Positions 11,601-29,313 of a DNA stretch of 46,277 nucleotides are shown here, in pieces. This DNA is from Akkermansia muciniphila (GTDB lineage: Bacteria; Verrucomicrobiota; Verrucomicrobiia; Verrucomicrobiales; Akkermansiaceae), in the NCBI GenBank assembly GCA_945860285.1, contig CAMAQB010000014.1, forward strand, positions 1 through 46,277, in the 5' to 3' direction. The first letter of the stretch is position 1; each line of letters opens with the position of its first letter. A program made the position numbers and the translations under genes. The notes beneath the pieces are model-generated. The model saw only the letters and a list, made by a program, of their open reading frames with translations, was not told the DNA's origin and did no database searches.

Positions 11601-13100
11601 ATGGAATCGTCATTTCGTAGATTTTCCAGCCTGCTGTTGATTGCCGTCATCGCCTTCGTCGGGATTTCGGCCTTGCGCATGTGGCGGCATGGCCGCTGGC
11701 CGTGGGAGGTTTTTTTTCCGAATTCCTCCCACCGGCCCGAAACGTTCACGCTGCCGGAAAAAGCGCCGCTCGATCTCGGCGACGTGGAACTCCTTTCGCG
11801 GCTCAACAATGAATACGCCCGCTTGACCCAAGCGGTGGTGCCGTCGGTGGTGAGCATCGACATCGCGGGCGTACGCGAGGAAACACTGCGCGATGTCTGG
11901 GGTCGATCGCAGATTCGCCGGCAAATGACCCAGGGCCAGGGGTCGGGCGTGATCGTCACTGTGGAAGGCCATGTCGTTACCAACCAGCATGTCATTTCCG
12001 GGCAGCAACAGATTCAAGTGACCCTTCACGACGGCAAATCCTATTCGGCAACCTTGATCGGCGAGGACCCGCTGCTCGATGTTGCGGTGCTCAAAATCAA
12101 CGCGCCGGGTCCTTTCACGCCGCTCAAGCTCGGAGATTCCTCCGCTGTTAAAGTCGGCCAAATTGTTTTCGCGGTTGGCAATCCCTTCGGTTTGAGCGAA
12201 ACCGTGACCCAGGGAATCATCTCGGCGAAGGAGCGTTCGATCTCCGACCAGCAGCGCGATCTCTTTCAAACGGATGCCGCCATCAATCCCGGCAATTCCG
12301 GCGGACCGCTGGTCAACTTGCAGGGGGAAATCGTCGGCATCAATGTGGCTATTTTTTCTCCCGACAAGGAAAATCCCGGCTTTCAGGGTGTGGGATTCAG
12401 CATTCCCTCGAACGATGTCCGCGAGTCGCTGACCCAGATTTTGCAAAAAGGCCGGCCGGTGCACGGCTACCTCGGGGTGGAAATGCGGCCGCTGGATTCG
12501 CGCGTCCGCCAGGTACTCGGCTACAACCTGGCTAATGGCAGCGTGGTGGTCAATGTGGTGAAAAACTCCCCTGCCGACAAAGCAGGCCTAAAGCCGCGCG
12601 ACGTGATCGTGGAATACAACAGCAAGGAAATCCAGTCGCCCAATCATTTGTTCGCAATGGTGCAGCGCTCGGGCATCGGCGATGAAGTTCCCATCAAGGT
12701 CTGGCGGGGCGGGGAAATCCTCAGCCTCAAGGCGACCATCTCTGAAAACCTGCCCAGTGCTCCGCAGACATCGACCGCCGAAGCCACCCAGGCCCGCGAT
12801 CCGGAGGAGATCATCGCGAAATACGGCATCCTGGTTCGTTCGTTTTCCACACTGGAAAGCTCGCGCGGTCTCACTGGCGTCCTAGTCACCGCCGTCGATC
12901 CGCTGGGTTTGGGCTCTTCGACGATCCGCATGAATGACGTAATCGTCGCGGTGAACCAGAATGCGGTGGTCAACGCCCAGGACTTTTACCGGCAGTTTGT
13001 CACCTCCATTGGCGTGCAGGCCACGCAGATCACCCTGATTCGCGAAAACAAGGTGATGACCTTAGTGCTGCAAAGCCTGCCGAGAAAACCATCGAAGTAG
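11601..13100 (+). CDS. DegP/HtrA-family periplasmic serine protease
   Basis: A 499-residue HtrA-type protease of envelope quality control. It starts with a basic stretch and one hydrophobic anchor or signal (SLLLIAVIAFVGISAL). The trypsin-like domain shows the full triad: His in VTNQHVIS, Asp in DPLLDVAVLK and Ser in NPGNSGGPL. Two PDZ domains follow, PDZ1 beginning at HGYLGVEM and PDZ2 around RGLTGVLVTAVDP. The second PDZ is shorter and less canonical. The start at 11601 (MESSFRRF) is preferred to the upstream ATG at 11577 because it places the basic residues right before the hydrophobic segment. The gene ends about 60 bases before the left end of the ISL3 relic. DegP, DegQ and DegS cannot be told apart here, so no symbol is given. 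Confidence 0.92.
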   Translation: MESSFRRFSSLLLIAVIAFVGISALRMWRHGRWPWEVFFPNSSHRPETFTLPEKAPLDLGDVELLSRLNNEYARLTQAVVPSVVSIDIAGVREETLRDVWGRSQIRRQMTQGQGSGVIVTVEGHVVTNQHVISGQQQIQVTLHDGKSYSATLIGEDPLLDVAVLKINAPGPFTPLKLGDSSAVKVGQIVFAVGNPFGLSETVTQGIISAKERSISDQQRDLFQTDAAINPGNSGGPLVNLQGEIVGINVAIFSPDKENPGFQGVGFSIPSNDVRESLTQILQKGRPVHGYLGVEMRPLDSRVRQVLGYNLANGSVVVNVVKNSPADKAGLKPRDVIVEYNSKEIQSPNHLFAMVQRSGIGDEVPIKVWRGGEILSLKATISENLPSAPQTSTAEATQARDPEEIIAKYGILVRSFSTLESSRGLTGVLVTAVDPLGLGSSTIRMNDVIVAVNQNAVVNAQDFYRQFVTSIGVQATQITLIRENKVMTLVLQSLPRKPSK

Positions 13101-13159
13101 GCTCGTGGGGTCGTGCGGAAGGTGTTGAGCCAATGAAAATTCAAGAGCTTGATATTTTT

Positions 13160-13617
13160 GCCTCTTCCGCAAAATCTGTGGGTAAAAAGCACCATTGTGG
13201 GAAAATAAACATTTGTGATGACGAGCGTATTTGGTAAGTCAAGTGGTCAAAAAAAACAACCATCACACTAGTCACAGTTAAAAACCTACTCCGTAAATTG
13301 TGCCCGATCAAAGGCTTTCTTTTTCGCACCGTCGAAATGACTGAGAGCCCCAAGAAGCTCATCAAAGTCACCATCGAGCCACGCAAAAACAACCGTGCCA
13401 AATGCTCTTGCTGCGGCAAATCCGGTACCACCTACGACACCTCCCCCTCAGTTCGCTCCTTCGACTACATTCCCCTCTGGAGTTCAATTTGAAAGTAGGC
13501 AACGCGATGAGAAGAGCCTTTGGATATAGGAACTTCGGGCATTCAAGCATTGCCCTTTCCCATCAACCGGGCGACCTCCCCGAGCCACAAGCCACCCACA
13601 GATTCTGCGGATGAGCC
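13160..13617 (+). mobile_element. Complete miniature (internally deleted) ISL3-family element, 458 bp
   Basis: The ends 13160-13183 and 13594-13617 are inverted repeats that match at 21 of 24 positions. Between them a 64-residue frame (13298-13492) holds an ISL3 zinc-finger motif (CSCCGKSG with the following TYDTSPSVRSFDYIPLW). It is followed in another frame by a piece resembling the ISL3 C-terminus (MRRAFGYRNF). The DDE catalytic domain is gone. The flanking 8-mers (atattttt and ttttttct) are both T-rich but not identical, so no clean target duplication is visible. The truncated copy at 1-223 shares the same internal junction, which suggests the shortened form itself moved, using a transposase from elsewhere. 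Confidence 0.78.
13298..13492 (+). pseudogene. ISL3-family transposase N-terminal fragment
   Basis: The 64-residue fragment contains the zinc-binding start of an ISL3 transposase: RKNNRAKCSCCGKSG with a Cys-x2-Cys pair, then RSFDYIPLW, as seen at the beginning of this family. Intact ISL3 transposases are around 400-440 residues, so most of the protein is missing. A C-terminal scrap continues after a frame change at about 13485-13614. It cannot be catalytically active. Confidence 0.7.
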
Positions 13618-13804
13618 TTTTTTCTTATTGGTATTGTTATTCTACTTTTCTGTTCTGGGATAATTTACTTGCCTAATAAGCGAAAAGCGTGAAAAAAATT
13701 GAGTTTGTTCCTGCATCTTGCAGTTATAATTTCTGTTAGATTTTATCCAGCTTAAGCGTCCAGAATTTGTCCATCGGCAAAAATTTCCCAATCAAAAACA
13801 CGCA
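13618..13804. other. AT-rich intergenic stretch after the ISL3 relic
   Basis: About 190 bases, clearly richer in A and T than the surroundings, with no gene. It lies downstream of the small minus-strand gene at 13805-14059. AT-rich DNA of this type is a common insertion target, which would fit the adjacent element. Confidence 0.4.
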
Positions 13805-14059
13805 TCAAATGTCGATTGTCGGCCCAGAGCCCGCGTGATTCCCGCCTGCGGGCTGGGCGCGTCCGCCGGGGTTTGCCGGTTTTTTCCGCATGAAGGGAAT
13901 GAAGCGGGTGAAGTCAATGCCGAGATAGGCCATCGATTTGGTAAAGATCGCCAGCAACAGCGCTTCGTCGAGGAAGGGCAGCGGATCGGGGATGAAAATG
14001 TCAGCACACAGCGAAATGCCGCTGGCTATGGCGATCATCAGCACCAGGAATTTTTTCAT
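13805..14059 (-). CDS. Small exported or membrane protein, unknown (84 aa)
   Basis: The product begins with a signal-like segment (MKKFLVLMIAIASGISLC, a possible lipoprotein or Sec signal) followed by DIFIPDPLPFLDEALLLAIF, which resembles the PDP-x-P-F-x-DE motif found in small DUF1232/YkvA-like membrane proteins. The last 25 residues are Gly/Pro-rich. Codon use and the clean signal support a real gene. Its function is unknown. It is divergent from the tRNA-Arg gene. Confidence 0.65.
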   Translation of the reverse strand: MKKFLVLMIAIASGISLCADIFIPDPLPFLDEALLLAIFTKSMAYLGIDFTRFIPFMRKKPANPGGRAQPAGGNHAGSGPTIDI

Positions 14060-14182: not shown

Positions 14183-14254
14183 GGGCCCGTAGTCCAATGG
14201 ATAGGACGATGGTCTCCGAAGCCGTAGGTACAGGTTCGATTCCTGTCGGGCCCA
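14183..14254 (+). tRNA. tRNA-Arg (anticodon CCG)
   Basis: A full 72-base cloverleaf can be drawn: a 7-bp acceptor stem GGGCCCG/CGGGCCC, a D-stem GTCC/GGAC, a 5-bp anticodon stem with a loop CTCCGAA giving anticodon CCG at positions 34-36, and a 5-bp T-stem ACAGG/CCTGT with loop TTCGATT. The discriminator base is A. CCA is not encoded and must be added. It decodes CGG. It sits 30 bases upstream of the glutamate dehydrogenase start. Confidence 0.96.
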
Positions 14255-14284
14255 CTTCTTCACAACCCCGCGCGGCTCCCTGTG

Positions 14285-16335: not shown

Positions 16336-18018
16336 ATGACCATCGTCCATCAAGTTTTCCAACTTCTCGCCGGCGTCGGCCTGTTTCTTTTTGCGATGAA
16401 TCTGTTGGAGGATTCGCTCAAAAACCTGTCCGGGCGGACCTTCAAACTATTTCTCCAACGCACCACCAAAAACCGGCTGGGGGCGGTGGCGGGAGGGGCG
16501 GTGGTGACAGGGGTGCTGCAAAGCAGCTCGATGGTTTCACTGATGGTGCTCGCTTTTGTGGGTGCCGGGGTGTTCACGATGAAAACCGCCCTGGCCGTCA
16601 TCCTCGGTGCGAACCTCGGAACCACGCTCGACAGCTGGCTGGTGGCTTCGCTAGGCTTCAAGGTGAACATCGAAGTGGCTGCCTACCCCGCGATATTCGT
16701 CGGCGGCTTTCTGCTCGTGCTGTTCGGCAGGCGCCGGATGATCCAATATGCGGCGTATTTCCTGCTCGGGTTCGGGCTGTTGTTCATCGGCCTGAACTTC
16801 ATGAAAACAGCCATGGAAGATCAGGTTGGGCTGTTTGACTTGTCCCGCCAGGCACAGCTTCCGGCGGTGGTGTTTCTGCTCACCGGATTCCTGATCACCC
16901 TGCTCGTGCAATCGAGTTCCGTGACCATGGCACTGACCCTCAGCGCGCTGCATGCCGGGGTGATCGGCTTTGCGCCCGCCGCCGTCATCGTGCTCGGGTC
17001 GGAAACCGGCACCACCATGAAAATCATGCTCGGTGCCCTGGGTGGCAATGCCTCGAAAAAACGGGTCGCATTGGGCAACATCATGTTCAATGTTTTCATC
17101 ACGGCGGGCGCGTTTCTTTTGCTGGATCAAATTCTCCTGCTGGTGACCAAGGTGTTCCACATCAGCGATCCACTCATCGGCCTGGTGACATTTTCCAGCC
17201 TGATCAACCTGCTGGGCATCCTCGTTTTTTTGCCCTTCCTGAACCGCTTCGCCAATTTTCTGGAGCGATTCTTCAAGGATAGCGATGCTTCCGCCGCCGT
17301 TTTCATTGGTCAGGCCGATGCGGCGGAACCGCAGACCGCACTCGATCTGTTCGGAAGGGAAACGGAATATTTCCTCCATGATTCGATGCTTTTCAACCTG
17401 CGGCAATTCGGGATTGATAAGGAAGCCCTATCCGTGGATCCGGCCCTCGGCGAGATCCATCGGAAAAGGCGCTCCGCCTCCCAAACAACCGAAGAGCAAT
17501 ATGAGTTCCTGAAACAGCTGCAGGGCGAACTGCAGGCGTTTTACCTGACCCTGCGCGGCAAGTTGCACGACGAGCAGGACTCGCGGCTCACCCAGTTGAT
17601 CTCCGCAGTGCGCAGCTCGATGTATGCGGTGAAGGGCATCAAGGACATCGGCAGCAACATCGCCAACCTCAGCAGGTCGTCCAAGGACATCAAGTTCGAT
17701 TTCTTCATGCATCACAAGAATGAAACGGAGGACTTGTACCTACGGCTGCACGAGCTGCTCGGCCGCGAAAAAAAGGCGGATTTCAGCGAGCTGCAGGACA
17801 TCTTCCATCTGATCCAGACCAATTACGTTTCGGCATTGAATGATTTTTACAACCGGGCGCAGCACGCCCACCTCGAGGATCTGGACATCACGGTGGCCAT
17901 CAATTTCAATCGCGAACTGTTCACCTCGAACAAAGCGATGCTGATGGCGGTGAAGGATTTCCTGCTCGAAGAGGACGAAGCGGAGGAATTCAACGAGATT
18001 CCGGTCTACCGGACCTGA
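16336..18018 (+). CDS. Na/Pi cotransporter family protein with C-terminal PhoU-like region
   Basis: A 560-residue inner-membrane protein. Several hydrophobic helices in residues 1-310 hold the two inverted-repeat signatures of the Na/phosphate symporter family, QSSS at 62-65 and again near 192 (VQSSSVTMAL). The rest, about 330-560, is soluble, helical and charged, as in the PhoU-like domain of the NptA/YjbB type. It imports or exports phosphate with sodium. It abuts the CHAD gene with no spacer, so translation is probably coupled. An 11-bp hairpin covers its stop codon. Confidence 0.9.
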   Translation: MTIVHQVFQLLAGVGLFLFAMNLLEDSLKNLSGRTFKLFLQRTTKNRLGAVAGGAVVTGVLQSSSMVSLMVLAFVGAGVFTMKTALAVILGANLGTTLDSWLVASLGFKVNIEVAAYPAIFVGGFLLVLFGRRRMIQYAAYFLLGFGLLFIGLNFMKTAMEDQVGLFDLSRQAQLPAVVFLLTGFLITLLVQSSSVTMALTLSALHAGVIGFAPAAVIVLGSETGTTMKIMLGALGGNASKKRVALGNIMFNVFITAGAFLLLDQILLLVTKVFHISDPLIGLVTFSSLINLLGILVFLPFLNRFANFLERFFKDSDASAAVFIGQADAAEPQTALDLFGRETEYFLHDSMLFNLRQFGIDKEALSVDPALGEIHRKRRSASQTTEEQYEFLKQLQGELQAFYLTLRGKLHDEQDSRLTQLISAVRSSMYAVKGIKDIGSNIANLSRSSKDIKFDFFMHHKNETEDLYLRLHELLGREKKADFSELQDIFHLIQTNYVSALNDFYNRAQHAHLEDLDITVAINFNRELFTSNKAMLMAVKDFLLEEDEAEEFNEIPVYRT

Positions 18019-18049
18019 AGCCACAACAGAGCTGTGGCTTCAGCTTTTC
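18015..18049. terminator. Bidirectional terminator between convergent genes
   Basis: An 11-bp perfect inverted repeat (CTGAAGCCACA at 18015-18025 and TGTGGCTTCAG at 18033-18043) with a 7-base loop is followed by CTTTT. It contains the stop codons of both the Na/Pi gene (18016-18018) and the facing thiol-dioxygenase-like gene (18040-18042), so it most likely ends both transcripts. Confidence 0.75.
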
Positions 18050-18789
18050 AGCACCGCCTCGTAGATGTTCTTCGACCCCGCAACCGGGCGCTCGTCGAGT
18101 TCATACCACAGGCTGTTTTCCTGGCGCTCCTTGTTGTAGGGCGGCGTGAAAATGTCGATCAACTGCGTCACCTGCCGCGCCTTGAGGGTGTGGATGTTGC
18201 GTGCTTTCGATGTCAGAGTGGACACGTCGCCTTTTTTCATCAGCACGTCCGAACTCTGATGCAGCAGGCATTTCCCCGTGTGCTTGCCGTCGATCGTTAG
18301 ATCTTCGATCGACTTGTAGACGTCGTAATTTTTCGTGTGGATCTCGCCCGAGGCGCAGAGGATCATGCCGGTCATGCCGGGGTGGTTGTGCGGATTAATC
18401 GTTTCTTCAACATCGAACTGCAGCAGGCACACGGCGAAATCGACACGTTTTTCGAGGTCGTGGAAATCCACCCAGCCTTTTTTCAACCGTTCGCTGACTT
18501 TGGTCATGGCCGCCGCGATCACAGGATCCTCGAGATACAGATTGCGGGTGAGTGCGGAAATTTTTTCCAGGTAGTCTTCCTGCACCCAGTTGTCGAGATG
18601 CTGCTTGGCGGCTTCCCTGGCCACGGCTTCGAGAAAAGCCTCCCAGTGCAGCGGCTCTCCGGCGGGCAGGCGACCCTGGCAGGCATTGGCGCGTGTGGCG
18701 AGCGCGCACAAGGTCGGCAGCGACAACAACACCCCGAGAAATCCCGGGACGCTGGTTTTGATGAATTCACGGCGGTCGTATTCCTCCAT
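18040..18789 (-). CDS. Tat-signal cupin protein of the cysteamine/plant-cysteine dioxygenase type
   Basis: The 249-residue product begins with a twin-arginine signal: DRREFIKTS (Arg 6 and 7 from the chosen start) followed by a hydrophobic run, so it should be exported folded with its metal. The C-terminal half resembles the PCO/ADO thiol dioxygenase family. It has HNHPGMTG with two likely iron-ligand His (134, 136), a segment like GEIHTKNYDV, a third His in ARNIHTL (about 200) and the family-like ending IDIFTPPYN. Such enzymes oxidise free or N-terminal thiols to sulfinates. A bacterial, exported version is unusual. Start 18789 is the first ATG; it places the signal right at the N-terminus. 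No partner gene is adjacent. Confidence 0.72.
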   Translation of the reverse strand: MEEYDRREFIKTSVPGFLGVLLSLPTLCALATRANACQGRLPAGEPLHWEAFLEAVAREAAKQHLDNWVQEDYLEKISALTRNLYLEDPVIAAAMTKVSERLKKGWVDFHDLEKRVDFAVCLLQFDVEETINPHNHPGMTGMILCASGEIHTKNYDVYKSIEDLTIDGKHTGKCLLHQSSDVLMKKGDVSTLTSKARNIHTLKARQVTQLIDIFTPPYNKERQENSLWYELDERPVAGSKNIYEAVLKS

Positions 18790-18987
18790 CGGCGCGGCCA
18801 AGGTACCGTGCGATGCCCGTGTTGTCAATGAACTGCGGCGACATGGTCACTGTGCAACGATGACTGTGTAGCTGTTCGTGTTCCTCATGACTTCGCGAAA
18901 AGGTGAGTCTCATGCACGAGTCGTTCGTTCGCAGAATGATATTGCATTCGGAAGGCCTTTCATATCCAATATCCACTGACCTCATTC

Positions 18988-19431
18988 ATGCAGGAAGAAG
19001 ATCCCAAGACGCTCGAACGCATGGCCACCGAGATCGCCATGGCGGAGAGGCCAAACGTAATCATTGATCGATCGCAGCGGCGCGCGCTGCGAAGGTATTT
19101 GTTTATCGTACTTTTGATGCCAACCATGATCTGCATCGTGCTGGCGACTGCCACTTCGATGGTGCAACGCACGCCCTGGGTTGCCCGCTTGCAGATCGAT
19201 GGCGACTGGTTGGTCCTTGCCTATTTCATCATCATTGCCCTCTCAACCTTCCTTCTTGGTTTCGTGCATTCGCGAGTCCACGACGCACTGCATCCCGAGC
19301 AAGCTCCCAAACGCAACGGTGACTTGTGGTGGTACGCGATCAGATTTTTCTTTTGCCAATTCTGCGTTATTCCCCTGTGCATTTTTGTAATTGCCCTATT
19401 TTTTGCCGTAGCAAGTTTCGTGGTGATGTAA
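18988..19431 (+). CDS. Small membrane protein, unknown (147 aa)
   Basis: Three hydrophobic segments are visible, at about residues 40-58 (FIVLLMPTMICIVLATA), 75-95 (LVLAYFIIIALSTFLLGF) and 122-146 (ending VASFVVM). The N-terminus is acidic, then basic just before the first segment, which suggests a cytoplasmic N-terminus. No family is recognised. It is divergent from the thiol dioxygenase-like gene, with about 200 bases between the two starts. Confidence 0.65.
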   Translation: MQEEDPKTLERMATEIAMAERPNVIIDRSQRRALRRYLFIVLLMPTMICIVLATATSMVQRTPWVARLQIDGDWLVLAYFIIIALSTFLLGFVHSRVHDALHPEQAPKRNGDLWWYAIRFFFCQFCVIPLCIFVIALFFAVASFVVM

Positions 19432-19516
19432 ATGGAACCCATGTCATCGACTGCGGGGATTTCGCGTTGGGGATGGTTGAAATGAATCAATCACATCGAT
19501 GACCAGTCGGGCTTCT

Positions 19517-19900
19517 TCAGTCTCTCGAAGGCATGGCCCAGACTCTGATGAAATAGGTTTTCGATTGTTCGCACACATACACCGCTTCGTTGTATCCCGG
19601 TTTCGGCGAGGTGCTCCAGTACATTTTCATGCGATGACCGCTGGAGCTGATGGGTGCGGATTTGAACATCAGGAAAAGGTTGAGCAGGATGATGAGGAAG
19701 CCGAGAATCATCGAAACGAAAACCAGTTGCGTGGAAATTTTCCCCATCATGTGGGCGATGGGCCCGCCAAAAACGAGAACAACACCGATCACACTGAGGG
19801 TGCCAAACCTCCGCTCGAAACGTTTCCACGCGGTCTTGTCTTCGCGATAGCCCGCGAGACTTGCCGGATCCAACCGGGGGAGATCGAAAATTTTCCACAT
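19517..19900 (-). CDS. Small membrane protein, unknown (127 aa)
   Basis: The product has two adjacent hydrophobic segments at about 35-80 (LSVIGVVLVFGGPIAHMMG and LVFVSMILGFLIILLNLFL) and a soluble C-terminus with two Cys, WAMPSRD at the end and a YVCEQSKTYFIRVW patch. The start at 19900 (MWKIFDLPRL) is preferred; an earlier start codon at 19918 is possible. It is convergent with the gene at 18988. Function unknown. Confidence 0.6.
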   Translation of the reverse strand: MWKIFDLPRLDPASLAGYREDKTAWKRFERRFGTLSVIGVVLVFGGPIAHMMGKISTQLVFVSMILGFLIILLNLFLMFKSAPISSSGHRMKMYWSTSPKPGYNEAVYVCEQSKTYFIRVWAMPSRD

Positions 19901-20099
19901 GGGGCGGGGAGGATGCAATTACCTTCTCTTCGTTTTACAAGCTTCGTTATAGCAATTTAGCGCTGCTTGCATAAGCACACATGGAAGCAAATGCCCGCTG
20001 TCGTGATGTTGCTCCAGGAAATTGCATGAGGGATGTTGTCATGAGAAAGAAAATGCAGGAGCTTATTTGAGGAAAAATGTGTATTGAGCTCGAAGCAGC

Positions 20100-21104
20100 C
20101 TACCTAATAGAAGTCTGTTCCAAACCCTTTAAGCATTGAGGTCGGCGAAGCCTTGATACTCTTTCCAAATGAATTGGGGTGTATTCGTCTGGAGTTAGAA
20201 CATTGTTTATGAATTTAAGGCGGATTGCACCTCGACACGGAGTTCCAGTTCGCGGAGAGCGCAGTCCAAGTGCTCCGGAACCATCAAAAACTGGAAGGTC
20301 ATTGATCAAATGGCTTCTGTCACAGGCCGTAGTGATTTGCGAGCATGAGACGCGGCATCCTTGACGGGCAAGTAGTGTCAAGTAGCCAGGGCGAGGATGG
20401 CTATATGAATTCTTTGATCCAACTGACATAAAAGCGAGTTCGGGAGCAACATTCTCTACTGCTTGACGAAAAAGCGTCCTGCTGTCTTTTCGAGACTTTT
20501 TGAAATCCGTTGGCCCACCATGATGGGGGCCCATTAAAAAGCGTGGGGTTCGCCCTGCTAACTTGTCGGCCACTGCATACATCGGAAGGTCGCCTGGCCA
20601 AGCACCGTGTACCGTTGTTTCATCTTCCAAGATAATAAACCCACTTGCTTCGTTTGGGTTTTTAGCAATGATATTTTCGGAAAATCCAGGGTATATTGGC
20701 CGAATTACCAAATTTGTATTTTCGTCACGCCAGATTTCATTCCCCAGCTCCAATCGACGAATGCAAAGCCTGCCGCGCTTTTCCTCTTCGTATGCTCTCC
20801 GAAAAATTTTGGCAAAAGGCTCATCCTTGCGCGGGCGATCTTCAAGCATCCAGATAATTTGGATGTTTGATGCATGATCATCTAGAATGCTCGGTAAAGC
20901 TCCAACATGATCTGAGTCATTATGGGTGAGCACAATTGCAGCGATGTTTGGGCGCGGCCTACGATCCGCCAGCCACTCAACCAAAGGACTCGCTTTGGTT
21001 CCCACATCGATAATTACCAGGCGACCATCGGGCAAAGTTATTACCGTGCAGTCGCCCTGCCCAACATCCCAAAGGTCGATCGTCAAGTTGTATGGCAGTT
21101 TCAC
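20100..21104 (-). CDS. ComEC/Rec2-like metallo-beta-lactamase-fold hydrolase
   Basis: A 334-residue soluble protein resembling the extracellular hydrolase domain of ComEC. DVGQGDC near residue 13 and IIDVGT near 31 open the fold. The metal site THNDSDHVGAL has His 61, Asp 63, Asp 65 and His 66, the H-x-D-x-DH form seen in ComEC-type proteins. PHHGG near residue 190 and SVGSKNSYSHPRP downstream complete the pattern. It has no membrane domain and no signal peptide, so it probably acts in the cytoplasm, perhaps as a nuclease or phosphodiesterase. It starts with GTG and overlaps the stop of the preceding gene (GTGA). It is the last of three overlapping genes in an AT-richer segment. Its biological role in this operon is unknown. 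Confidence 0.85.
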   Translation of the reverse strand: MKLPYNLTIDLWDVGQGDCTVITLPDGRLVIIDVGTKASPLVEWLADRRPRPNIAAIVLTHNDSDHVGALPSILDDHASNIQIIWMLEDRPRKDEPFAKIFRRAYEEEKRGRLCIRRLELGNEIWRDENTNLVIRPIYPGFSENIIAKNPNEASGFIILEDETTVHGAWPGDLPMYAVADKLAGRTPRFLMGPHHGGPTDFKKSRKDSRTLFRQAVENVAPELAFMSVGSKNSYSHPRPGYLTLLARQGCRVSCSQITTACDRSHLINDLPVFDGSGALGLRSPRTGTPCRGAIRLKFINNVLTPDEYTPIHLERVSRLRRPQCLKGLEQTSIR

Positions 21105-21736
21105 ACTGGCGGAAGGATCGACAGCCGTTCAATTGATTTTACCTCTTCGCCTACACCAAGTTTTACGTATGCAGCGAAATGGTCTCCAATATTGAGCAGG
21201 TCCAGAGATAAGAGGACGGGGCCCACAATTTTTTGTGTAACATCATCATGCCATTTAACTCTAACAAATCCAGGTTGCCGATCTGTTAGCTCTCCTTCTA
21301 GATAGCGCGGAGGAGATCGATCAATTGAAAAGCGCCGATAATCAACTCTATCCAAAATGTTTATCCAATCGCGTCGCTCTTCCTCGGTAAGATCACCTCG
21401 CTCTGCTTTTGAAAAAAGGATAAGAAATCGTCTTGCTGCTATGATCGGCAAATCAACAATATCAGCTGGGGACAAATTTAGATTCCAACCTTCCACATGG
21501 CATGACCAGCTTTGGGGATCAACTTCAACCAACAATGGTCGTCGAAGGTGAAGGAGAATCCTGCCGCCTTCGATCGACAGTACCTTGCGATTATACTTAT
21601 ATGGTATGTTCCGATTAGATGGTTTTTCGTCCGAACGAACTTTTTTAGACGATTGAAAGGGGGCAGATTCTTCATACACCATCTTATGCCGAATATCAGC
21701 GCCCGCTTCATTTGGTTGTGCTAAGGTGAGGATCAT
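21101..21736 (-). CDS. Unknown protein, middle gene of a three-gene operon (211 aa)
   Basis: No family is recognised. The product is soluble and has a disordered, Lys/Ser-rich N-terminus up to about residue 50. A compact region follows, beginning GGRILLHLRRPLLVEV and containing ADIVDLPIIAARRFLILF, then an acidic helix (TEEERRDWINILDRVDYRRF). The C-terminal 60 residues look beta-rich. It overlaps the upstream TIGR04255-like gene (ATGA) and the downstream metallo-hydrolase gene (GTGA), so all three are likely translated together and needed in a fixed ratio. It may be an adaptor or regulator of its neighbours. Confidence 0.7.
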   Translation of the reverse strand: MILTLAQPNEAGADIRHKMVYEESAPFQSSKKVRSDEKPSNRNIPYKYNRKVLSIEGGRILLHLRRPLLVEVDPQSWSCHVEGWNLNLSPADIVDLPIIAARRFLILFSKAERGDLTEEERRDWINILDRVDYRRFSIDRSPPRYLEGELTDRQPGFVRVKWHDDVTQKIVGPVLLSLDLLNIGDHFAAYVKLGVGEEVKSIERLSILPPV

Positions 21737-22581
21737 GGGTGTCTAGTTGGGCCAAAGGTTTCCTTTGCTTCTGTGGTAAATACAAGTTCGAAACGCTCAA
21801 TTATACGTTCATGACACCAATTAAGCAACTGCAAAGCCTCTTGGACCGTGCCATGTCCGGGACGTAGGGCTGCGGTGCATTTCAACTTTACTAGCACAGT
21901 CGGCCCTCTTCCTAATGAAGAATCGTCATTTACACGTATATGCAGCGATGTTTCCGGATTAAGTCGGACAGTTACTTGGCAGTCGAACGGCGGTTCCAGG
22001 CGTTCGTGTACACCTGGAATACCTGCAAAAACGGTTAAAGCCTTACCAAGCTCAAGATCACCTTCGGAAGTAAAAAGATCCGGGGTGACATCACGACTTA
22101 GACTGTTGACGTAAATAAGTGTAACAGCATGGCACTGTGAAATATTGAAATGTCTAACCCATTTGGGAAACCATCGTTCGAATTCATCTTTTAAGTTGGC
22201 ATATTGTCGGTCACTTCCCGGTCGCGAATGCATGTTCATAATCAGAGTCCCACTGGGGCAGCGGATACTCCAGTCAAAGCCCTCTGCTTTTCGCTTTTTT
22301 GAAAATCTGTGAGTGATTTTTAGTTCTGGTTCCATAGTATCCAGAAGTGGAATTCCATCCTTTTCCTTCATATTCAAAAGCCACTCCGTCAGCGGCTCCT
22401 CGTAAGGGTATTCACTGGCAACTTCTTGGCGCCATCCCTCAATCCCTTCTTCGAACTGTTCAGGGGTCATTATCGCCTCGACAACCATTACCCTCTCAAT
22501 GATAGGAGGTTTTTGATAAATCACCTGAACAGAACGCGGCGGCGAAGGGATAACGAACTCAGAAGATATATGGTCCGTCAT
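21733..22581 (-). CDS. TIGR04255-like protein, first gene of a three-gene operon (282 aa)
   Basis: The beginning, YQKPPIIERVMVVEAIMTPEQF, resembles the opening of the sporadically distributed TIGR04255 family, whose members start with a similar pro-Pro-Ile-x-Glu pattern. The remaining sequence contains KWVRHFNISQCHAVTLIYVNS near the middle and a final LLNWCHERIIERFELVFT that are consistent with that family. No enzymatic motif or signal peptide is visible. It heads the operon, and its last codons overlap the next start by four bases. Base composition of this and the next two genes is clearly AT-richer than the flanks, suggesting acquisition by transfer. The assignment is by eye only. Confidence 0.62.
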   Translation of the reverse strand: MTDHISSEFVIPSPPRSVQVIYQKPPIIERVMVVEAIMTPEQFEEGIEGWRQEVASEYPYEEPLTEWLLNMKEKDGIPLLDTMEPELKITHRFSKKRKAEGFDWSIRCPSGTLIMNMHSRPGSDRQYANLKDEFERWFPKWVRHFNISQCHAVTLIYVNSLSRDVTPDLFTSEGDLELGKALTVFAGIPGVHERLEPPFDCQVTVRLNPETSLHIRVNDDSSLGRGPTVLVKLKCTAALRPGHGTVQEALQLLNWCHERIIERFELVFTTEAKETFGPTRHP

Positions 22582-23010
22582 ACTTCGATATTCACGCTAT
22601 CTCGTTTGCTGCTAGGAATTTGCTTTGGGATATCGATTACCATAGCTTAGAAAAATTGGTAGTATTGCGCGGGGGAAATGAGGTAATGGCTAAAACGAGA
22701 GGAATGGCTAATTGGGAGCTAGCTTGCGCCTCGTAATATGTAACAGCAGGTTCGATCATCACGTTTGCAGGCACATTTACTGAATGAAAAAATACCTCTC
22801 CAAACCACCCGGTCAAGATTATTTTTGAGATCGTTTTTTTGGTTAGCGGGCGGGATGAATCAGGATTTTTCAAGATCGACATGCAAACCCAGTCGTCAAT
22901 AAAACACCTCAAAGTTCACGAATCGGGTGGATATTGCTTTGGCTGCCGGCGTGGCATTCCCGCCCATCAGCCTTGAGATGCAACAGCTACAAGCGACCTA
23001 ACACCTGATC
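22582..23010. other. Long intergenic region upstream of the three-gene operon
   Basis: About 430 bases with no convincing gene (the longest frame, 22637-22912 on the minus strand, has no family resemblance). The stretch marks the boundary between the AT-richer operon and the GC-richer cdsA gene and should hold the operon's promoter. No RNA gene or repeat was recognised. Confidence 0.5.
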
Positions 23011-23997
23011 TTAACGCCCGAGCCAATGCAGCACCCAGTCCGGCGGGCGTGGATTCAATCCCGTGCCGAAACAGAAGCCGCACAGGTGAAAAAACAGCGG
23101 CGCGGCCAAACACAGCGAATCAATGCGATCCATGAAACCACCGTGACCCGCAATCGACGAACCCCAGTCCTTGGCACCGAGGTCGCGTTTGATGGCAGAC
23201 ATCACCAAGCCGCCGAAGAACCCCGCCACGCAGATCAGCAACGCCATCAAGGCCGCCTGCCACGGGCTAAACGGAGTCGCCCAATAGAGACAGGTGCTGA
23301 TCAATACCGTTGTCCCGATGCCCCCCAAGGTGCCCTCCCAGGTCTTGCTGGGACTCACATGCGGGGCCACCTTGCGTCGACCACAGGTCTTCCCCCAGGC
23401 GTATTGCAGGACATCGCTCATCTGCACCGTCAGCACGAAGAAGAACAGCAGCTTCGCGTTCTGACCTTCGTAGCCCTTGAGCGGCAGGGACAGGATCATC
23501 GGCATGTGACTCACGGCGTGCACGCACACCAGCAGCGCCCACTGGATTTTTGCGGTGCTGGCCAGAAAGTTTTTCGTCTCCCCCGTCAACACCCGACGGA
23601 ATGGAATGAAGACAAAGGCATACACGGGAATGAAAATGGCAAACAGTCCGTACCAATGGATTCCCACCAGGAAATAATGCAACGGCAGTATCACAAAAAA
23701 CGCCCAAAACAATACGGCGTGGTCCGCGCGCTCGGTGCGATTCAGCGTGATGAATTCCCTCATCGCCAAAAACGAAAGCGCAGCGAACAACACCGTTGTG
23801 AACACCGCCCCAAGAAGGATCGTTAGGCTGAATACCAACGCCATCACCCACCACGATTTGATGCGCGCATTGAGATTCGCCACCGTCGTCCGGGCCCCTT
23901 CGGAAGTCACCCGCGCGGCACAAATGGCGCCGATGATCGATGCCACGACCAGGATGCCGAGTACGGTGCTGAGGAGATAAAAAAGTTCGGGATCCAT
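23011..23997 (-). CDS. Phosphatidate cytidylyltransferase-like membrane protein
   Basis: A 328-residue integral membrane protein with about eight hydrophobic segments. The C-terminal CdsA signature is readable: SAIKRDLGAKDWGSSI followed by GHGGFMDRIDS. The enzyme makes CDP-diacylglycerol from phosphatidic acid and CTP. It follows the acyltransferase gene by 11 bases in the order CDP-alcohol phosphatidyltransferase, acyltransferase, cytidylyltransferase, which is a recurring phospholipid operon. It may be a secondary paralogue of the housekeeping CdsA, which cannot be judged from this window. Confidence 0.88.
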   Translation of the reverse strand: MDPELFYLLSTVLGILVVASIIGAICAARVTSEGARTTVANLNARIKSWWVMALVFSLTILLGAVFTTVLFAALSFLAMREFITLNRTERADHAVLFWAFFVILPLHYFLVGIHWYGLFAIFIPVYAFVFIPFRRVLTGETKNFLASTAKIQWALLVCVHAVSHMPMILSLPLKGYEGQNAKLLFFFVLTVQMSDVLQYAWGKTCGRRKVAPHVSPSKTWEGTLGGIGTTVLISTCLYWATPFSPWQAALMALLICVAGFFGGLVMSAIKRDLGAKDWGSSIAGHGGFMDRIDSLCLAAPLFFHLCGFCFGTGLNPRPPDWVLHWLGR

Positions 23998-24008
23998 GGT
24001 GATAATCG

Positions 24009-24623
24009 TTAGAGTTCGGGGTTGATGTTGTTCGAATCATGCAGCAGTGCGGCGCGCGCCCGATGCAGGAAATCGTGTTTCGGTTCCGCTTCGCAAAAAT
24101 GAATCGCAGTCCGGAAACTCGCCTGGGCAATGATGGGGACCGGCAGCAGCGTCCCCTTGGGCATGATGCGATTGAGATTTTCCAAATGAACCGGCACGAG
24201 TGGCAATGTGGGAAAACGGCGTGCCAGGTGATACAGCCCCGCTTTGAACTCACCGACCTCCCCATCACCCCGACGGGTTCCTTCGGGAAAAATCAGCACG
24301 CTGCGCCCGCGCTCGAGGCATTCCGTCAACTGATCGAGCGGGTTGTTTTCCCGCGTGATTCCTGTGCGGGCGATGAGCACCGATTGAAAAATCTCGCGCG
24401 CAATCCAGCGATGCAATTTTGTTTTGCCCCAGTAATCGAGAGCCGCCGCCGGAGACGTTTGCTGTCGCACCTCCAGTGGCAGGGCCGCCCACACCACCAT
24501 GAAATCGAGATGACTGGTGTGGTTCGCATAGAATACCGCCGGACCTTCCCCATGTGGAGATGCAGGCAGCACACGCACGCCGGTGAAAATCCGGGTGACC
24601 GCAGCGATAAAATTTCGCGTCAT
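24009..24623 (-). CDS. 1-acyl-glycerol-3-phosphate acyltransferase-like (PlsC family)
   Basis: The 204-residue product has the acyltransferase motif NHTSHLD (HX4D) near residue 38, a middle block FPEGTRRG near 120 and the later PLVPVHLEN block typical of PlsC-type enzymes. The first about 20 residues could form a membrane segment or interface helix. Its ATG overlaps the stop of the frameshifted phosphatidyltransferase gene (ATGA). The start at 24623 (MTRNFIAAV) is chosen; upstream in-frame sequence belongs to the antisense frame of the neighbour. Confidence 0.88.
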   Translation of the reverse strand: MTRNFIAAVTRIFTGVRVLPASPHGEGPAVFYANHTSHLDFMVVWAALPLEVRQQTSPAAALDYWGKTKLHRWIAREIFQSVLIARTGITRENNPLDQLTECLERGRSVLIFPEGTRRGDGEVGEFKAGLYHLARRFPTLPLVPVHLENLNRIMPKGTLLPVPIIAQASFRTAIHFCEAEPKHDFLHRARAALLHDSNNINPEL

Positions 24624-25284
24624 GGCGTGGGCGGTTGCTGCCGTTCGTGCAGTGCGCGCGAGAGAGCCGTGAGTCGTCGCACCAGTGTGAGAAAAATTCC
24701 CGCGATCATGACCCCCAGCAGCCACGTCACCACCGGCAGCGTTTTCGTGGCAAAAGTCAGTCCCGCCATCAGCAGACAAATGGCCGTTGCCAACGCCATG
24801 CGCTGTGGTTTGGCCATCGGACCCCGGAAATCATGCGTGCCGAGCAAACTCGCCCCATGCATGCGCACACACGCCGTCATCAGCGCCCCGCAGGCGGCCA
24901 ACCAGCCCAGCGGACACTCAGGGGCGTGCCACCCGCCTGACCCAACGCCGCCAGAATCGCCACATCGGCAATGCGATCCGGGAATTCATTGAACAGGTCT
25001 CCATTCGCCGTCTTCAAGCCGCCCTCCACCGCCAGCATTCCATCCATCAAATTGCAAACCAGCCGCAGTTGAATCCCCACCGCCGCAAGAAACCATGGCA
25101 ATGCCGCGGGCATGAACCGAGCGCCGTAAAGCATGCATGCCGCCGCCCCGAGAGCAAACACCGCACTGGCGACGGATACCTGATTCGGTCTCACCCCCGC
25201 CCGCAGCAGCGCCCGCGACAGCCCACTCGCCCATCCCGCAGATCGGGACTTCAGCGGACGACGGGCAGAAAGATCAGCGTTCAT
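24620..25284 (-). pseudogene. CDP-alcohol phosphatidyltransferase-like gene with a -1 frameshift
   Basis: Two overlapping frames together give one protein of about 221 residues. The first (25284 to 24880, 134 aa) holds the start MNADLSARRPLK and the CDP-alcohol motif beginning DGMLAVEGG, with the downstream GDLFNEFPDR. The pattern differs from the canonical DGxxARx8GxxxDxxxD by Val for Arg and Asn for the first Asp of the second pair. The second frame (24901 to 24620, 93 aa) supplies the remaining membrane part, starting from the LGWLAACGALMTACVRMHGAS stretch and including FRGPMAKPQRMALATA. The switch falls at a run of four C (four G at 24921-24924 on the plus strand); one extra C restores the frame. 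It could be a sequencing or assembly error, a real mutation or a programmed slip. The downstream acyltransferase start overlaps its stop. Confidence 0.75.
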
Positions 25285-25327
25285 TGTTGGTCAGGACGAT
25301 GACTCACCATGAGCCATCAACATCGGA

Positions 25328-26056
25328 TTGCAAGCCTGCGCTTCCGATCCATTGAAAATCCTATTCTTCCCTGTCAGTGCCACAATTCAAACATCGAAAA
25401 CACGACTTAATCCAGCAGACTTTGATCGACTCATGGGACGCGCCTTCGCTGCACGTCCTGTCAATTTTATTGACTCTCCACGGGGCATCAATAACCTGCT
25501 TCCTCTCTGCTCACGCCTGCCCTTCCCTTCTGGGGAAATCGAAACGTGGGGACGCGGCATCGAGCGCATCTTCGCCGCCTGTAACGACGCGGGTGCCCCC
25601 AAACCAAAGCTGACCTTGGATGGCACCGGCATCGCCCTGGAGTTCCGTTATACACCGGAATACCTCAAGGCGATGAAGACCCCGGAAGTCGCCGACCCAG
25701 TCACCCCGGAAGTCACCCCGGAAGTCACGGCACCTGTTAATCAAGGGGTAGAGTCGGGGGTAGAGTCGGGGCTAGAGTCGGGGCTAGAGTCGGGGCTAGA
25801 GTCGGGGCTAGAGTCAGGGCTAGAGTCAATCCTCTTCCGATCACTCCACGCTCTTGCCAGCCAGCCGCTCTCCAAGTCAGAAATCGCAACTTCCATTGGT
25901 CAGCAGAGCGCCTCTGGAAAACTCCACGAACGCATTCGCCAAATGCTCGTTCACAACCTCATCGAGCGCACCCTCCCGGACAAACCCAACAGCCGACTCC
26001 AAAAATACCGCCTCACCAACCAAGGCCGCGCCTGGCTCTCCCGGCACCCGCATTGA
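25328..26056 (+). pseudogene. 5'-truncated AlbA_2/HATPase-type regulator remnant
   Basis: The frame has no proper start (TTG and unrelated sequence at its beginning). From about 25520 it resembles the C-terminal half of AlbA_2/HATPase_c_4 regulators: SGEIETWGRGIERIF, then VTPE repeats (25693-25727), a run of ESGL repeats and the tail TLPDKPNSRLQKYRLTNQG. The DNA-binding AlbA_2 part and most of the ATPase-like part are absent. Seven tagagtc copies spaced 12 bases apart (25749-25827) encode the GLES repeat. It sits at the edge of the broken-gene segment before the restriction locus. Confidence 0.7.
25457..25480 (+). repeat. Palindromic 24-bp direct repeat, copy 1
   Basis: The sequence is cctgtcaattttattgac with tctcca following, containing the inverted repeat GTCAA/TTGAC with a 5-base loop. 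It matches 26135-26158 with one mismatch. TTGACT of the repeat, with TAACCT 16 bases further, could form a promoter. Confidence 0.55.
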
Positions 26057-26134
26057 CTTCATAAACGACCATCCCGTCACCGCCGCTTCACACCGCCGCA
26101 ACAGCGCGCTAAGAACTGGCCAAACCGGGCATGG

Positions 26135-26158
26135 CCTGTCAATTTTCTTGACTCTCCA
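26135..26158 (+). repeat. Palindromic 24-bp direct repeat, copy 2, possible promoter-operator
   Basis: Same element as at 25457-25480 with one mismatch (C for A). Here TTGACT (26148-26153) and TAGTCT (26170-26175) are 16 bases apart, 15 bases before the ATG of the small frame at 26191, so it may be a promoter with an overlapping operator. Confidence 0.5.
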
Positions 26159-26190
26159 AGGCCGGACATTAGTCTGGCTTGGTTGTGCAA

Positions 26191-26355
26191 ATGCCTGTCA
26201 AACTCCATTCCACTGCTGTTGTCGTGAACTACCATGTTTACGGCACGGATGGCGACTTCGCACGCCACTTCGCCTTCAACGCCGAGGAGCGCTTCCTGTC
26301 CCTCTACCAGTTCGCCGACGAGGTGAACAAGAAAGTCACCCACCTCGACACTTAA
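26191..26355 (+). CDS. Small unknown protein (54 aa), possible remnant
   Basis: The short frame encodes a protein starting MPVKLHSTAVVVNYHVYG and ending NKKVTHLDT. It is 3 bases upstream of an HsdM N-terminal fragment. It is protein-like but no family is recognised. It may be a small regulator or the start of a lost gene. The promoter-like palindromic repeat lies directly in front. Confidence 0.4.
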   Translation: MPVKLHSTAVVVNYHVYGTDGDFARHFAFNAEERFLSLYQFADEVNKKVTHLDT

Positions 26356-26358
26356 CTC

Positions 26359-26544
26359 ATGGCCCACAAATCCACCACCGATACCTCGACTGCCAACTTG
26401 GGCTTTGAACAGAAGCTCTGGCTCACCGCAGACATGCTCGGCGAAGGCGATCCCGCTCTGCGGTTCCGCGCCCTCCATCCTTTTTCAATATTTCCACAAA
26501 TGGACAAAAATGCGGTAAGAGCATTTGAGACTGCTGATACCTAA
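26359..26544 (+). pseudogene. Type I restriction HsdM N-terminal remnant
   Basis: The first about 27 residues (NLGFEQKLWLTAD) match the conserved start of HsdM methyltransferase subunits, which in intact proteins continues with the residues of a KYISD-type helix. Here the homology stops after TAD and the remaining residues are unrelated; the gene ends after 61 residues instead of 450-550. This is a decayed type I restriction-modification gene at the edge of the functional restriction locus. Confidence 0.65.
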
Positions 26545-26558
26545 TTTCATCAAGAACC

Positions 26559-27686
26559 GTGCAAGACATCGCTACCACTCCAACTCCTGGCAATTACTGC
26601 TCCAAAGATGCCGTCTTCTCCTTTTTCACCGGAGCCGGATTCTTGGATCTGGGTTTTGAGAAATCCGGATTTGAGATCGCCTTCGCCAATGAGCTCAATG
26701 CCGAGTTTGTGCAGGGATACCGCCACTCCCGGGCGAAGATGGGGCTGCCGCTGCCGCGCTACGGCATCGCCTGTGATTCGATTGACGATCATCTCAAGCC
26801 GGAAGCTGCCGCCGCGCTGAAGAAGCAGATCGCCGAGACGCGGAAAAGCGGCCAAACGGTCGGCTTCATTGGCGGCCCGCCCTGCCCGGACTTCTCCGTC
26901 GGCGGTAAAAACCGGGGGCACAAAGGCGACAACGGTCGGCTCTCCCGATCCTATATCGACCTGATCCTCGCACAAAAGCCCGATTGGTTTGTCTTCGAGA
27001 ATGTCAAAGGCCTGTGGCGGACCAAGCAGCACCGCGAGTTCTTCGATCAACTCGTCGCGGATCTCGCTGCGGCGGGATACCAGACGAAATCGAAACTCCT
27101 TAACTCGATTGCCTTTGGCGCACCGCAGGATCGGGATCGTATCATTCTATTCGGTGCGAGGACTTCGTTCATGAAGAAGCACAAGGTCTCGTTGGAGAAC
27201 TTCGACTGGAACTTTGCTGTCAAACATCCAGAGCGCAGCGCGTTTGACTTCGAGTGGCCGACCACATCGAAGTTCGGAGCGTCTCCGAAACCCACCTCCG
27301 CGCCAATTGAACTGACGATACAATACTGGTTCACCAAGAACGATGCGGAAAGCCATCCAAACGCAGCGCACTGCTTCACTCCCCGCGCCGCGTTGCCGCG
27401 TTTTCAGACCATTTCTGAAGGGGACGACAGCAAGAAGTGTTTCAAGAGACTCCACCGCCACCGCTATTCTCCCACCGCTTGTTATGGAAACAATGAAGTG
27501 CATCTTCATCCGTACGAAGCTAGGCGGATTTCTGTCGCGGAAGCATTGGCGATTCAATCGTTGCCAAAGGAATTCGAGTTGCCTTCAACGATGTCGCTTT
27601 CTGCGATGTTCAAAACTATCGGAAATGGTGTTCCTTATTTGATGTCGAAGGGGATCGCTGACTCCATCAAATCTTTCCTTCATTGA
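26559..27686 (+). CDS. DNA C5-cytosine methyltransferase
   Basis: The 375-residue product has all the conserved C5-MTase blocks: motif I FSFFTGAGFLDLGF, motif IV GGPPCPDFSVGGK with the catalytic Cys near 109, motif VI FENVKGL, motif VIII QDRDRI, and motifs IX-X around GNGVPYLMSKGIADSI. The variable target-recognition region lies between motifs VIII and IX (about 200-320). The start is a GTG at 26559, the first plausible start in frame. It is followed 22 bases later by the McrB-like gene, so the three genes form one operon. It probably protects host DNA from the restriction partner. The recognised sequence cannot be predicted. Confidence 0.9.
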   Translation: MQDIATTPTPGNYCSKDAVFSFFTGAGFLDLGFEKSGFEIAFANELNAEFVQGYRHSRAKMGLPLPRYGIACDSIDDHLKPEAAAALKKQIAETRKSGQTVGFIGGPPCPDFSVGGKNRGHKGDNGRLSRSYIDLILAQKPDWFVFENVKGLWRTKQHREFFDQLVADLAAAGYQTKSKLLNSIAFGAPQDRDRIILFGARTSFMKKHKVSLENFDWNFAVKHPERSAFDFEWPTTSKFGASPKPTSAPIELTIQYWFTKNDAESHPNAAHCFTPRAALPRFQTISEGDDSKKCFKRLHRHRYSPTACYGNNEVHLHPYEARRISVAEALAIQSLPKEFELPSTMSLSAMFKTIGNGVPYLMSKGIADSIKSFLH

Positions 27687-27708
27687 AATCCAAACAACGA
27701 CCTGTCCA

Positions 27709-29301
27709 ATGACATCCAACGAAATCCGCAATGAAATTCTGAGGTCTGCACGACATTTGATCGGCACCCGCCTGCCTTACCTCGTCGGAGCAAACAGCAT
27801 TACTATCTTGGAGGTTACCGAAACCTTGATCCGGGCGAACCGAAATGAAGGCAGTGTGACAATTCCCTTGGATGCCGTAACAGAATTAGCTCGCGGCCTT
27901 GAGGGAGGCGGCCCGATTCACATCGACACACTATTCCACGGCAGAGGGAATTACCGCACCGCGCTAGAAACAATCGCAGCAAACTCCCCACACTGCGGCT
28001 ATCTCCCAGCAAATTCGACACGCAACCAAGGAGCGAAAAAGCTGGTGTGGTTTTCGCGCGAAATTCACGACCTTGGACAAATTCTCGATGCCACTGACTT
28101 GATGGGTCAGGAACAACAGGAGGAATTGCCGTTGGCGCAGTTTCAAGACACCCCCATTTCCCGCGCTCTACTCTCCAAACCCTTCCTGATCCTCACGGGG
28201 CCCTCCGGAACGGGCAAGACGCGCGGGTCGATCCAACTGGCGGAGAGCCTTTGCGACGCGGATTGCCGGGCGGTGGTCGCGGTGGGGGCGGATTGGACGG
28301 ACAACCGACATGTGCTGGGGTTCCTCAATCCGCTTCAGACTGCGGATGGAACTCCGACCGGAGCGCCGATTTACGAGACAACGGAGATTCTGAATTTGCT
28401 GCTGCATGCGAATGCGGAGGAGAACAGGGAAAAGCCCCACGTCCTGATTCTGGATGAGATGAACCTTTCCCATGTGGAGCGGTATTTCGCGGACTTCCTC
28501 TCGGCGATGGAGCTGGAGGACAAGGAAAAGGCGCTGAAGCTGCATTCCGCCGGACTGGCGAAGACTCGCGAGGGCGTGGACGTGGAGGGCAGCATCGACT
28601 TTCCCGAAAACCTATTCGTGATCGGCACCGTGAACATTGATGAGACGACCTACATGTTCAGTCCGAAAGTGTTGGACCGGGCGAATGTGATTGAGATCCA
28701 CGCGGATCCGACCGCGCTGGCAAACTTCCTAAAAGGTATAGCGGGCGAGGCGGGACCGGAGGCACGGAACCATGGGGTTTCATTTCTGGATGCGGCCCGG
28801 GTAATCCGAAACGAGGATGCCCACGGCCATGTGCCGCTGGTGACACCCGAGTTTAGAGAACTTGCGGCACAGCGGCTGATGGAACTCTTCGAAATCATGA
28901 AGCGCGGGCGCGGAGAGTTCGGTTTTCGGACCGGGCGCGAGGTGCTGGCTTACCTGCGGACGGCGCATTTCCTCACTCTGGAAGCGCAACGGGCGGCATG
29001 GTCTGCGCCGGATGGCGACTGGCTGAAGGCGTTGGACGCGCAGATCCTACAAAAGATCCTGCCTAAGCTGCATGGCAGCCGCACGCGTCTTGCCCCCTTG
29101 CTAGGAGCGCTCGCTCAGTATTGTGCCACGGCAACCAAAGCCTATGCCATGGAGCATTTCGCTGAGGGAGGGAACTCGCCGAAGCGTGGCTTGAACGACG
29201 CTCGGAACATTCAGAATCCGAAGTTTAAGGAATCTTACAAGAAGCTGGAACGGATGATCGAGGTGCTGGTGGAGGAGCAGTTCGTGAGTTTCATTTGCTG
29301 A
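27709..29301 (+). CDS. McrB/LlaJI-R1-like AAA+ motor of a restriction system
   Basis: A 530-residue protein. Residues up to about 145 form a separate N-terminal domain, perhaps for DNA recognition. An AAA+ module follows, with Walker A GPSGTGKT near 164, Walker B LILDEMN near 246 and GTVNIDETTYMFSPKVLDRA near 305, which replaces the NTADR motif of canonical McrB, as in LlaJI/BsuMI-type motors. The C-terminus is helical. It should power DNA translocation for the nuclease encoded next, whose start lies 12 bases after its stop. Confidence 0.85.
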   Translation: MTSNEIRNEILRSARHLIGTRLPYLVGANSITILEVTETLIRANRNEGSVTIPLDAVTELARGLEGGGPIHIDTLFHGRGNYRTALETIAANSPHCGYLPANSTRNQGAKKLVWFSREIHDLGQILDATDLMGQEQQEELPLAQFQDTPISRALLSKPFLILTGPSGTGKTRGSIQLAESLCDADCRAVVAVGADWTDNRHVLGFLNPLQTADGTPTGAPIYETTEILNLLLHANAEENREKPHVLILDEMNLSHVERYFADFLSAMELEDKEKALKLHSAGLAKTREGVDVEGSIDFPENLFVIGTVNIDETTYMFSPKVLDRANVIEIHADPTALANFLKGIAGEAGPEARNHGVSFLDAARVIRNEDAHGHVPLVTPEFRELAAQRLMELFEIMKRGRGEFGFRTGREVLAYLRTAHFLTLEAQRAAWSAPDGDWLKALDAQILQKILPKLHGSRTRLAPLLGALAQYCATATKAYAMEHFAEGGNSPKRGLNDARNIQNPKFKESYKKLERMIEVLVEEQFVSFIC

Positions 29302-29313
29302 GGAATCTGCCGC

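Follow-up and report, generated by a model that had tools for sequence, protein, structure and literature searches.

A sporadic three-gene operon with a ComEC-like metallo-hydrolase and a TIGR04255-like protein is a candidate defence module of Verrucomicrobiota

Nucleases of the MBL fold serve as effectors in several defence systems. Protease-gated MBL nucleases occur in Hachiman, AVAST, Lamassu, DRT and Canu, and in Hachiman, AVAST and Canu the effector is a ComEC-like MBL nuclease that is freed by a protease (PMC12799240). For ComEC itself, H598, D600, D602, H603 and D700 of the Moorella protein are metal ligands and H725 is an active-site residue, and the nuclease activity is enhanced by the protein's own OB fold (PMC12455585). 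Here, we analyzed an operon of three genes, A, B and C, in which the product of gene C is closest to the ComEC nuclease domains. No model in Pfam, NCBIfam or PADLOC names this trio, so that within these three collections it matches no named system, as the first-pass annotation had supposed. A literature search, in which subscription papers and preprints were thinly covered, returned no account of TIGR04255, 6A-MBL or the trio. MBL-nuclease defence modules as such are already known, and the trio looks like an undescribed variant among them.

The operon is located on the minus strand of the window, by which we mean the whole 46,277-nucleotide stretch of DNA that was analyzed. Gene A (21733..22581, minus strand) is the first gene of the operon and encodes 282 aa, gene B (21101..21736, minus strand) encodes 211 aa, and both start with ATG in the ORF list; gene C (20100..21104, minus strand) encodes 334 aa from a GTG start that overlaps B. 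The A/B overlap reads ATGA and the B/C overlap GTGA, each of 4 bp, and the initial reading of three overlapping minus-strand genes was thus borne out by ORF coordinates and sequence. The same holds for its description of an AT-richer patch: the trio (20100-22581) has a GC content of 46.7% compared to 57.4% for the remaining window, and among 378 trio-sized windows (step 100, mutually overlapping, none touching the trio) the mean was 57.8% (sd 1.7) and the minimum 53.0%. The proposed check for a GC deviation showed the trio to be lower in GC than the remainder of the retrieved sequence in 10/10 measured copies (L084 excluded), two of which deviate only slightly, with deficits of 0.5 points (L024) and 2.4 points (L017). 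We found no convincing repeats on either side of the trio and no match to Rfam across 18000-26600, and promoter- and terminator-like sites did not exceed those in shuffled sequence; the sole tRNA of the window lies 5.8 kb away. A second AT-richer patch is present at 13001-14000 (GC 48.4%), beside tRNA-Arg (14183-14255). A search for an empty site in the genus yielded only partial matches of 29-39% for the CdsA-like flank and no match outside the window's genome for the Na/Pi-cotransporter-like flank.

Protein C has matches in Pfam, NCBIfam and PADLOC only at the level of the MBL fold. It scores above the Pfam cut-off for Lactamase_B and for no other family, and its Pfam list contains neither a membrane family nor a ComEC channel family; as far as this list reaches, C has no membrane domain, as had been noted at first pass. 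Among proteins of solved structure, C matches the nuclease domains of ComEC best, with E-values of 2.3e-20 (9ic4) and 6.1e-20. The model for full-length ComEC, TIGR00361, is not reached (35.5 bits, cut-off 190.05), and the PADLOC matches to LmuA (5.3e-8), PDC-M48B and RTasMBL are weak and cover short N-terminal stretches. Mapping by hand on the profile alignment places ComEC H598, D600, D602, H603, D700 and H725 at H61, D63, D65, H66, D172 and H194 of C, respectively. The first four form the motif H61-N-D63-S-D65-H66 (20907..20924, minus strand), D172 of the WPGD motif (20589..20591, minus strand) is the equivalent of the metal ligand D700, and H194, the equivalent of H725, belongs to H194-H195-G196 (20517..20525, minus strand). 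Five of the mapped residues (H61, D65, H66, D172, H194), which correspond to residues of the two-metal site of ComEC, as well as H195 are invariant in 12/12 C proteins, and position 63 is D in nine and H in three of them; the metal site of ComEC type that had been called intact is therefore confirmed, with D or H at position 63. The position of ComEC S728 is occupied by G in five, A in six and M in one C protein. The ComEC alignment stops near residue 247 of the profile, before a C-terminal Cys/His region (20133..20345, minus strand) in which C254, C261, C290, H312 and C324 are invariant in 12/12 proteins. Because these residues are invariant beyond the ComEC-like part, they suggest a possible second metal site. 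By the fold and conserved residues seen in its sequence, C carries a ComEC-type nuclease active site, and its activity would be the cleavage of DNA.

ComEC is thus the closest solved relative of C, and the trio shares with it the metal and active-site residues and the company of an OB-type domain, which in the trio is predicted to reside on protein B. It differs from ComEC in that it has no channel domain, distributes the OB and nuclease parts over separate proteins, carries the extra Cys/His region in C and a third protein, A, and has not kept S728. With the protease-gated systems, the trio shares a DNA-uptake-related MBL nuclease in a defence-type operon, and Canu likewise consists of three genes (PMC12799240). 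In contrast to these systems, neither A nor B of the window matches a protease family in Pfam, NCBIfam or PADLOC at E≤10. Insertions over the active site gate the nuclease in those systems; in the profile alignment, C shows no long insertion relative to ComEC. C is also distant from Avs1a (10.8 bits, cut-off 420). Among the nearest named NCBIfam models is 6A-MBL (NF058524), which matches 7/7 C proteins weakly; the C protein of the window, however, scores 24.6 bits where 220 are required, and only over residues 12-71.

Protein B was unrecognised at first pass and stays so at the level of family models, since it has no match in Pfam, NCBIfam or PADLOC at E≤10. Its AlphaFold2 model has a mean pLDDT of 81, with residues 1-39 below 50, and gave no Foldseek match at E≤0.001. 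In structural comparisons, the proteins matched by residues 140-211 were largely OB folds, the best with 66 aligned residues at Z 7.7 and rmsd 2.6, with all OB-fold matches, like those obtained for the fold of A, below Z 8. Many of the OB folds matched by this C-terminal third are nucleic-acid binders, and we predict from the model that the C-terminal part of B (approximately residues 140-211) adopts an OB fold. This prediction bears on the question of the substrate of C. The MBL fold acts on many substrates, and C also matches the choline-binding esterase CbpE and hydroxyacylglutathione hydrolases weakly, so C might hydrolyze another phosphoester, such as a nucleotide signal, a lipid or a wall ester, and the trio would then be a signalling or metabolic operon. 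We consider this quite unlikely, as the ComEC domains score far better than CbpE (2.3e-20 versus 9.2e-4) and as the OB-type domain of B and the restriction-modification neighbours described below point to nucleic acid.

Protein A of the window has no match in Pfam, NCBIfam or PADLOC at E≤10, and TIGR04255 is matched by only two of seven A proteins (best E-value 8.7e-07); the A protein of genome G141 scores 24.1 bits and stays below the cut-off of 30 bits. Profile-profile comparison with hhalign connects A to TIGR04255 with a probability of 98.1% and an E-value of 1.1e-13 over 242 columns. The resemblance to this family that had been seen by eye is therefore real at the level of remote homology, while the curated cut-off is not reached. 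The best structure model of A has a pLDDT of 81 and the other four 70-75. It gave no Foldseek match at E≤0.001, and resemblances of A to McsB (Z 7.5) and to TBP (Z 5.4-5.7) were discarded, being not above background.

TIGR04255 proteins also occur apart from the trio. In the order, 18/189 genomes matched the family, 17 of them above the cut-off, compared to 0/14 control genomes; the sole match below the cut-off is the A protein of trio L006. Inspection of 19 ordinary TIGR04255 loci (L062-L078, L080 and L081; flanks of ~1.5 kb with heuristic ORF picking) revealed by eye two small same-strand genes downstream in 11/19 cases, and none of ten downstream partner proteins scored above a Pfam cut-off. 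One protein recurring in third position carries a TSVSR...HA-I pattern, and another protein at these loci an N/Q-T-C-D motif. Restriction-modification genes are found near three of the 19 loci (an N6-methylase match at L064, HsdM at L078, a DUF1156 methylase at L081), and the gene upstream in L062 has no PADLOC match. L064 is located on contig C6 of the window's own genome, which thus holds a second, ordinary TIGR04255 gene, with an N6-methylase match ~2 kb upstream. The trio resembles these loci in that A is a remote homologue of their TIGR04255 protein, but profile comparison finds no relation between B and the proteins in second or third position there (probabilities of 0.3% and 0.1%), and no MBL gene was recognised by eye within these short loci. 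Together, these loci suggest that TIGR04255 proteins may be a shared part of several modules.

Conservation analysis revealed 11 complete A-B-C operons: that of the window, nine in other genomes and one on an IMG/VR contig of unknown host (L084). All 11 have the order A-B-C on a single strand; A and B overlap in 11/11 (by 4 bp in eight) and B and C in 9/11, where the longer overlaps vary with the choice of start codon. Because the same trio recurs at ten places besides the window, the association of its genes is more than chance, and the proposal of a fixed unit holds up. Gene A has matches in 7/386 genomes of the order and gene B in eight, or seven once the match in L010 (E 0.009) is dropped, which inspection of the L010 ORFs exposed as chance; A and B are thus found in the identical set of 7/386 genomes, a sporadic occurrence. 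Gene C (E≤1e-10) is present in these seven and in one further genome, G118, where the stretch reaches the end of the contig. A scattering of the three homologues, which would have spoken against a common system, is therefore ruled out: A, B and C track one another and stay together across genomes, whereas their neighbours vary from copy to copy.

In a sample of 387 genomes of the phylum, B was detected in the window's genome and four others, three of which contain the full trio; the fourth, G571, encodes B together with a C stub. This decayed copy (L025:3282-4047) consists of B followed by a C stub of 35 aa, with HipA-type genes adjacent, and A was not found in it. Across the 84,980 species of genome_contigs, the GPHHG pattern returned 30 stretches, of which nine were confirmed; this pattern is single and narrow, and the trio may occur elsewhere beyond its reach. 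Seven of the nine apparently represent trio contigs already found, L028 apparently belongs to G118, and L029 contains a truncated C without its N-terminal third; eight of the nine are from Prosthecobacter, Verrucomicrobia-type, Limisphaerales or Lentisphaeria MAGs. A C homologue of 432 aa in L012 (176-1474) has an additional ~100 aa at its C-terminus that are absent from the other C proteins. In plasmid records, neither A nor B has a match at E≤0.01, and A has none in viral_contigs; for C, such sources contain only matches of 24-28%, in 29 records of plasmids and three of phages. The context of one of the C matches, in Priestia, was set aside, as the partner there is DUF3006 and the arrangement hence different from the trio.

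The same distribution bears on whether C might be an accessory nuclease for DNA repair or for the processing of DNA during uptake, without a role in immunity. ComEC, the closest solved relative of C, is indeed a DNA-uptake protein, but the Pfam list of C lacks a ComEC channel family, the neighbours of the trio vary, and A and B are too sporadic (7/386 genomes) for a core part of repair or uptake. We regard this explanation as very unlikely.

Several copies of the trio lie within or next to defence loci. In L017, the trio is inserted between HmaB and HmaC (both PADLOC E 0) on one strand. In L020, it directly follows HsdR, HsdM and HsdS together with matches to PDC-S02 and PDC-S26, which are PADLOC candidates, again on one strand. 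In L022, the genes ahead of it encode a methylase and a restriction enzyme, both of type II, and a NERD protein. In L084, it comes after HsdM, which is truncated by the limit of the retrieved sequence, HsdS and a gene whose product has a GmrSD domain and matches HEC-05, where we take HEC to stand for Hma-embedded candidate. Restriction-modification or Hma genes therefore directly adjoin the trio on the same strand in 4/11 operons. Among the remaining copies, the defence locus of the window is 4 kb away, and 6/11 operons are without an adjacent defence gene. L016, L018, L021 and L024 show no defence gene in the stretches read, and the vicinity of L023 contains a phage-type integrase, a DnaB-like protein and an ERCC4-domain protein; the neighbours in these five were judged by eye from their translations, except for three L023 proteins. 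L019 is a contig of 4.2 kb, too short for judging neighbours.

In the window itself, the restriction locus that had been placed about 4 kb from the trio does start 3,977 bp from gene A, albeit on the opposite strand and behind housekeeping-type genes (CdsA-like and acyltransferase-like). It comprises, all on the plus strand, a C5 methylase (26559-27686), an AAA protein (27709-29301) with a weak PADLOC match to PDC-M26A, and a DUF2357/PDDEXK_7 protein (29314-31665). This apparent restriction-modification locus (26559-31665) may be similar to LlaJI-type systems.

As a measure of chance proximity, we counted N6-methylase matches, of which there are 51 in 11 genomes (~59.5 Mb), some being pieces of one gene. 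A match within 7 kb is expected at 1.2% per site, or 0.12 times in ten copies, and was observed once, in the L020 genome, whose only match in 7.1 Mb lies ~4 kb from the trio. For this one marker, the outcome corresponds to about 1 chance in 9 and is not significant by itself; the argument for defence therefore rests on the position of the trio within operons. The co-occurrence with defence genes that the first-pass annotation led one to expect is thus seen as direct adjacency in 4/11 copies, but not in the 6/11 without such a neighbour. Its suggestion of mobility is likewise sustained only in part, by the integrase near L023 and by RepB-like and serine recombinase genes further out in L084, and is seen directly at no other copy.

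Overlapping genes, sporadic spread, lower GC content, an integrase or recombinase near two copies and a HipA gene next to a decayed copy would also suit a selfish, toxin-antitoxin-like addiction module on mobile DNA. In such a module, C or A would be the toxin and the remaining proteins would neutralise it, and defence genes would merely share the same islands. However, the trio encodes three sizeable proteins, that of the window matches no known toxin or antitoxin model in Pfam, NCBIfam or PADLOC, and a shared use is suggested by copies on the same strand within an Hma operon and immediately behind HsdRMS; we consider an addiction module unlikely.

Our preferred reading, held with about even confidence, is that the trio is a horizontally acquired, DNA-degrading defence module directed against phages or plasmids, with the defence role deduced from genomic context. 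According to this model, the gene overlaps would keep A, B and C in a fixed ratio, probably for assembly into one complex, and C would act as a two-metal DNase of ComEC type with an extra Cys/His region. Through its OB fold, B may hold the nucleic acid on which C acts, a partnership with a precedent in ComEC, where an OB fold aids the nuclease domain. A could be a sensor of infection or of invading DNA, or a brake on C. Carried within restriction-modification and Hma loci, the trio would be an additional barrier to the DNA of phages or plasmids, so that foreign DNA is cleared or the infected cell is killed or arrested.

A broader and rather doubtful proposal is that TIGR04255-like proteins form the common core of a family of modular defence systems of three genes, in which the second and third proteins are exchangeable. 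The trio would then be the variant armed with a nuclease: the OB and nuclease parts of ComEC would have been split into two free proteins, and A would control the destruction of invading DNA with no need for the protease step of Hachiman, AVAST and Canu. If true, the trio would represent a protease-free control of a ComEC-type nuclease in immunity, and it would provide a first testable role for the sporadic TIGR04255 family, in an operon compact enough for cloning and immediate phage challenge. It would also indicate that defence systems still missing from the catalogues can be found in Verrucomicrobiota.
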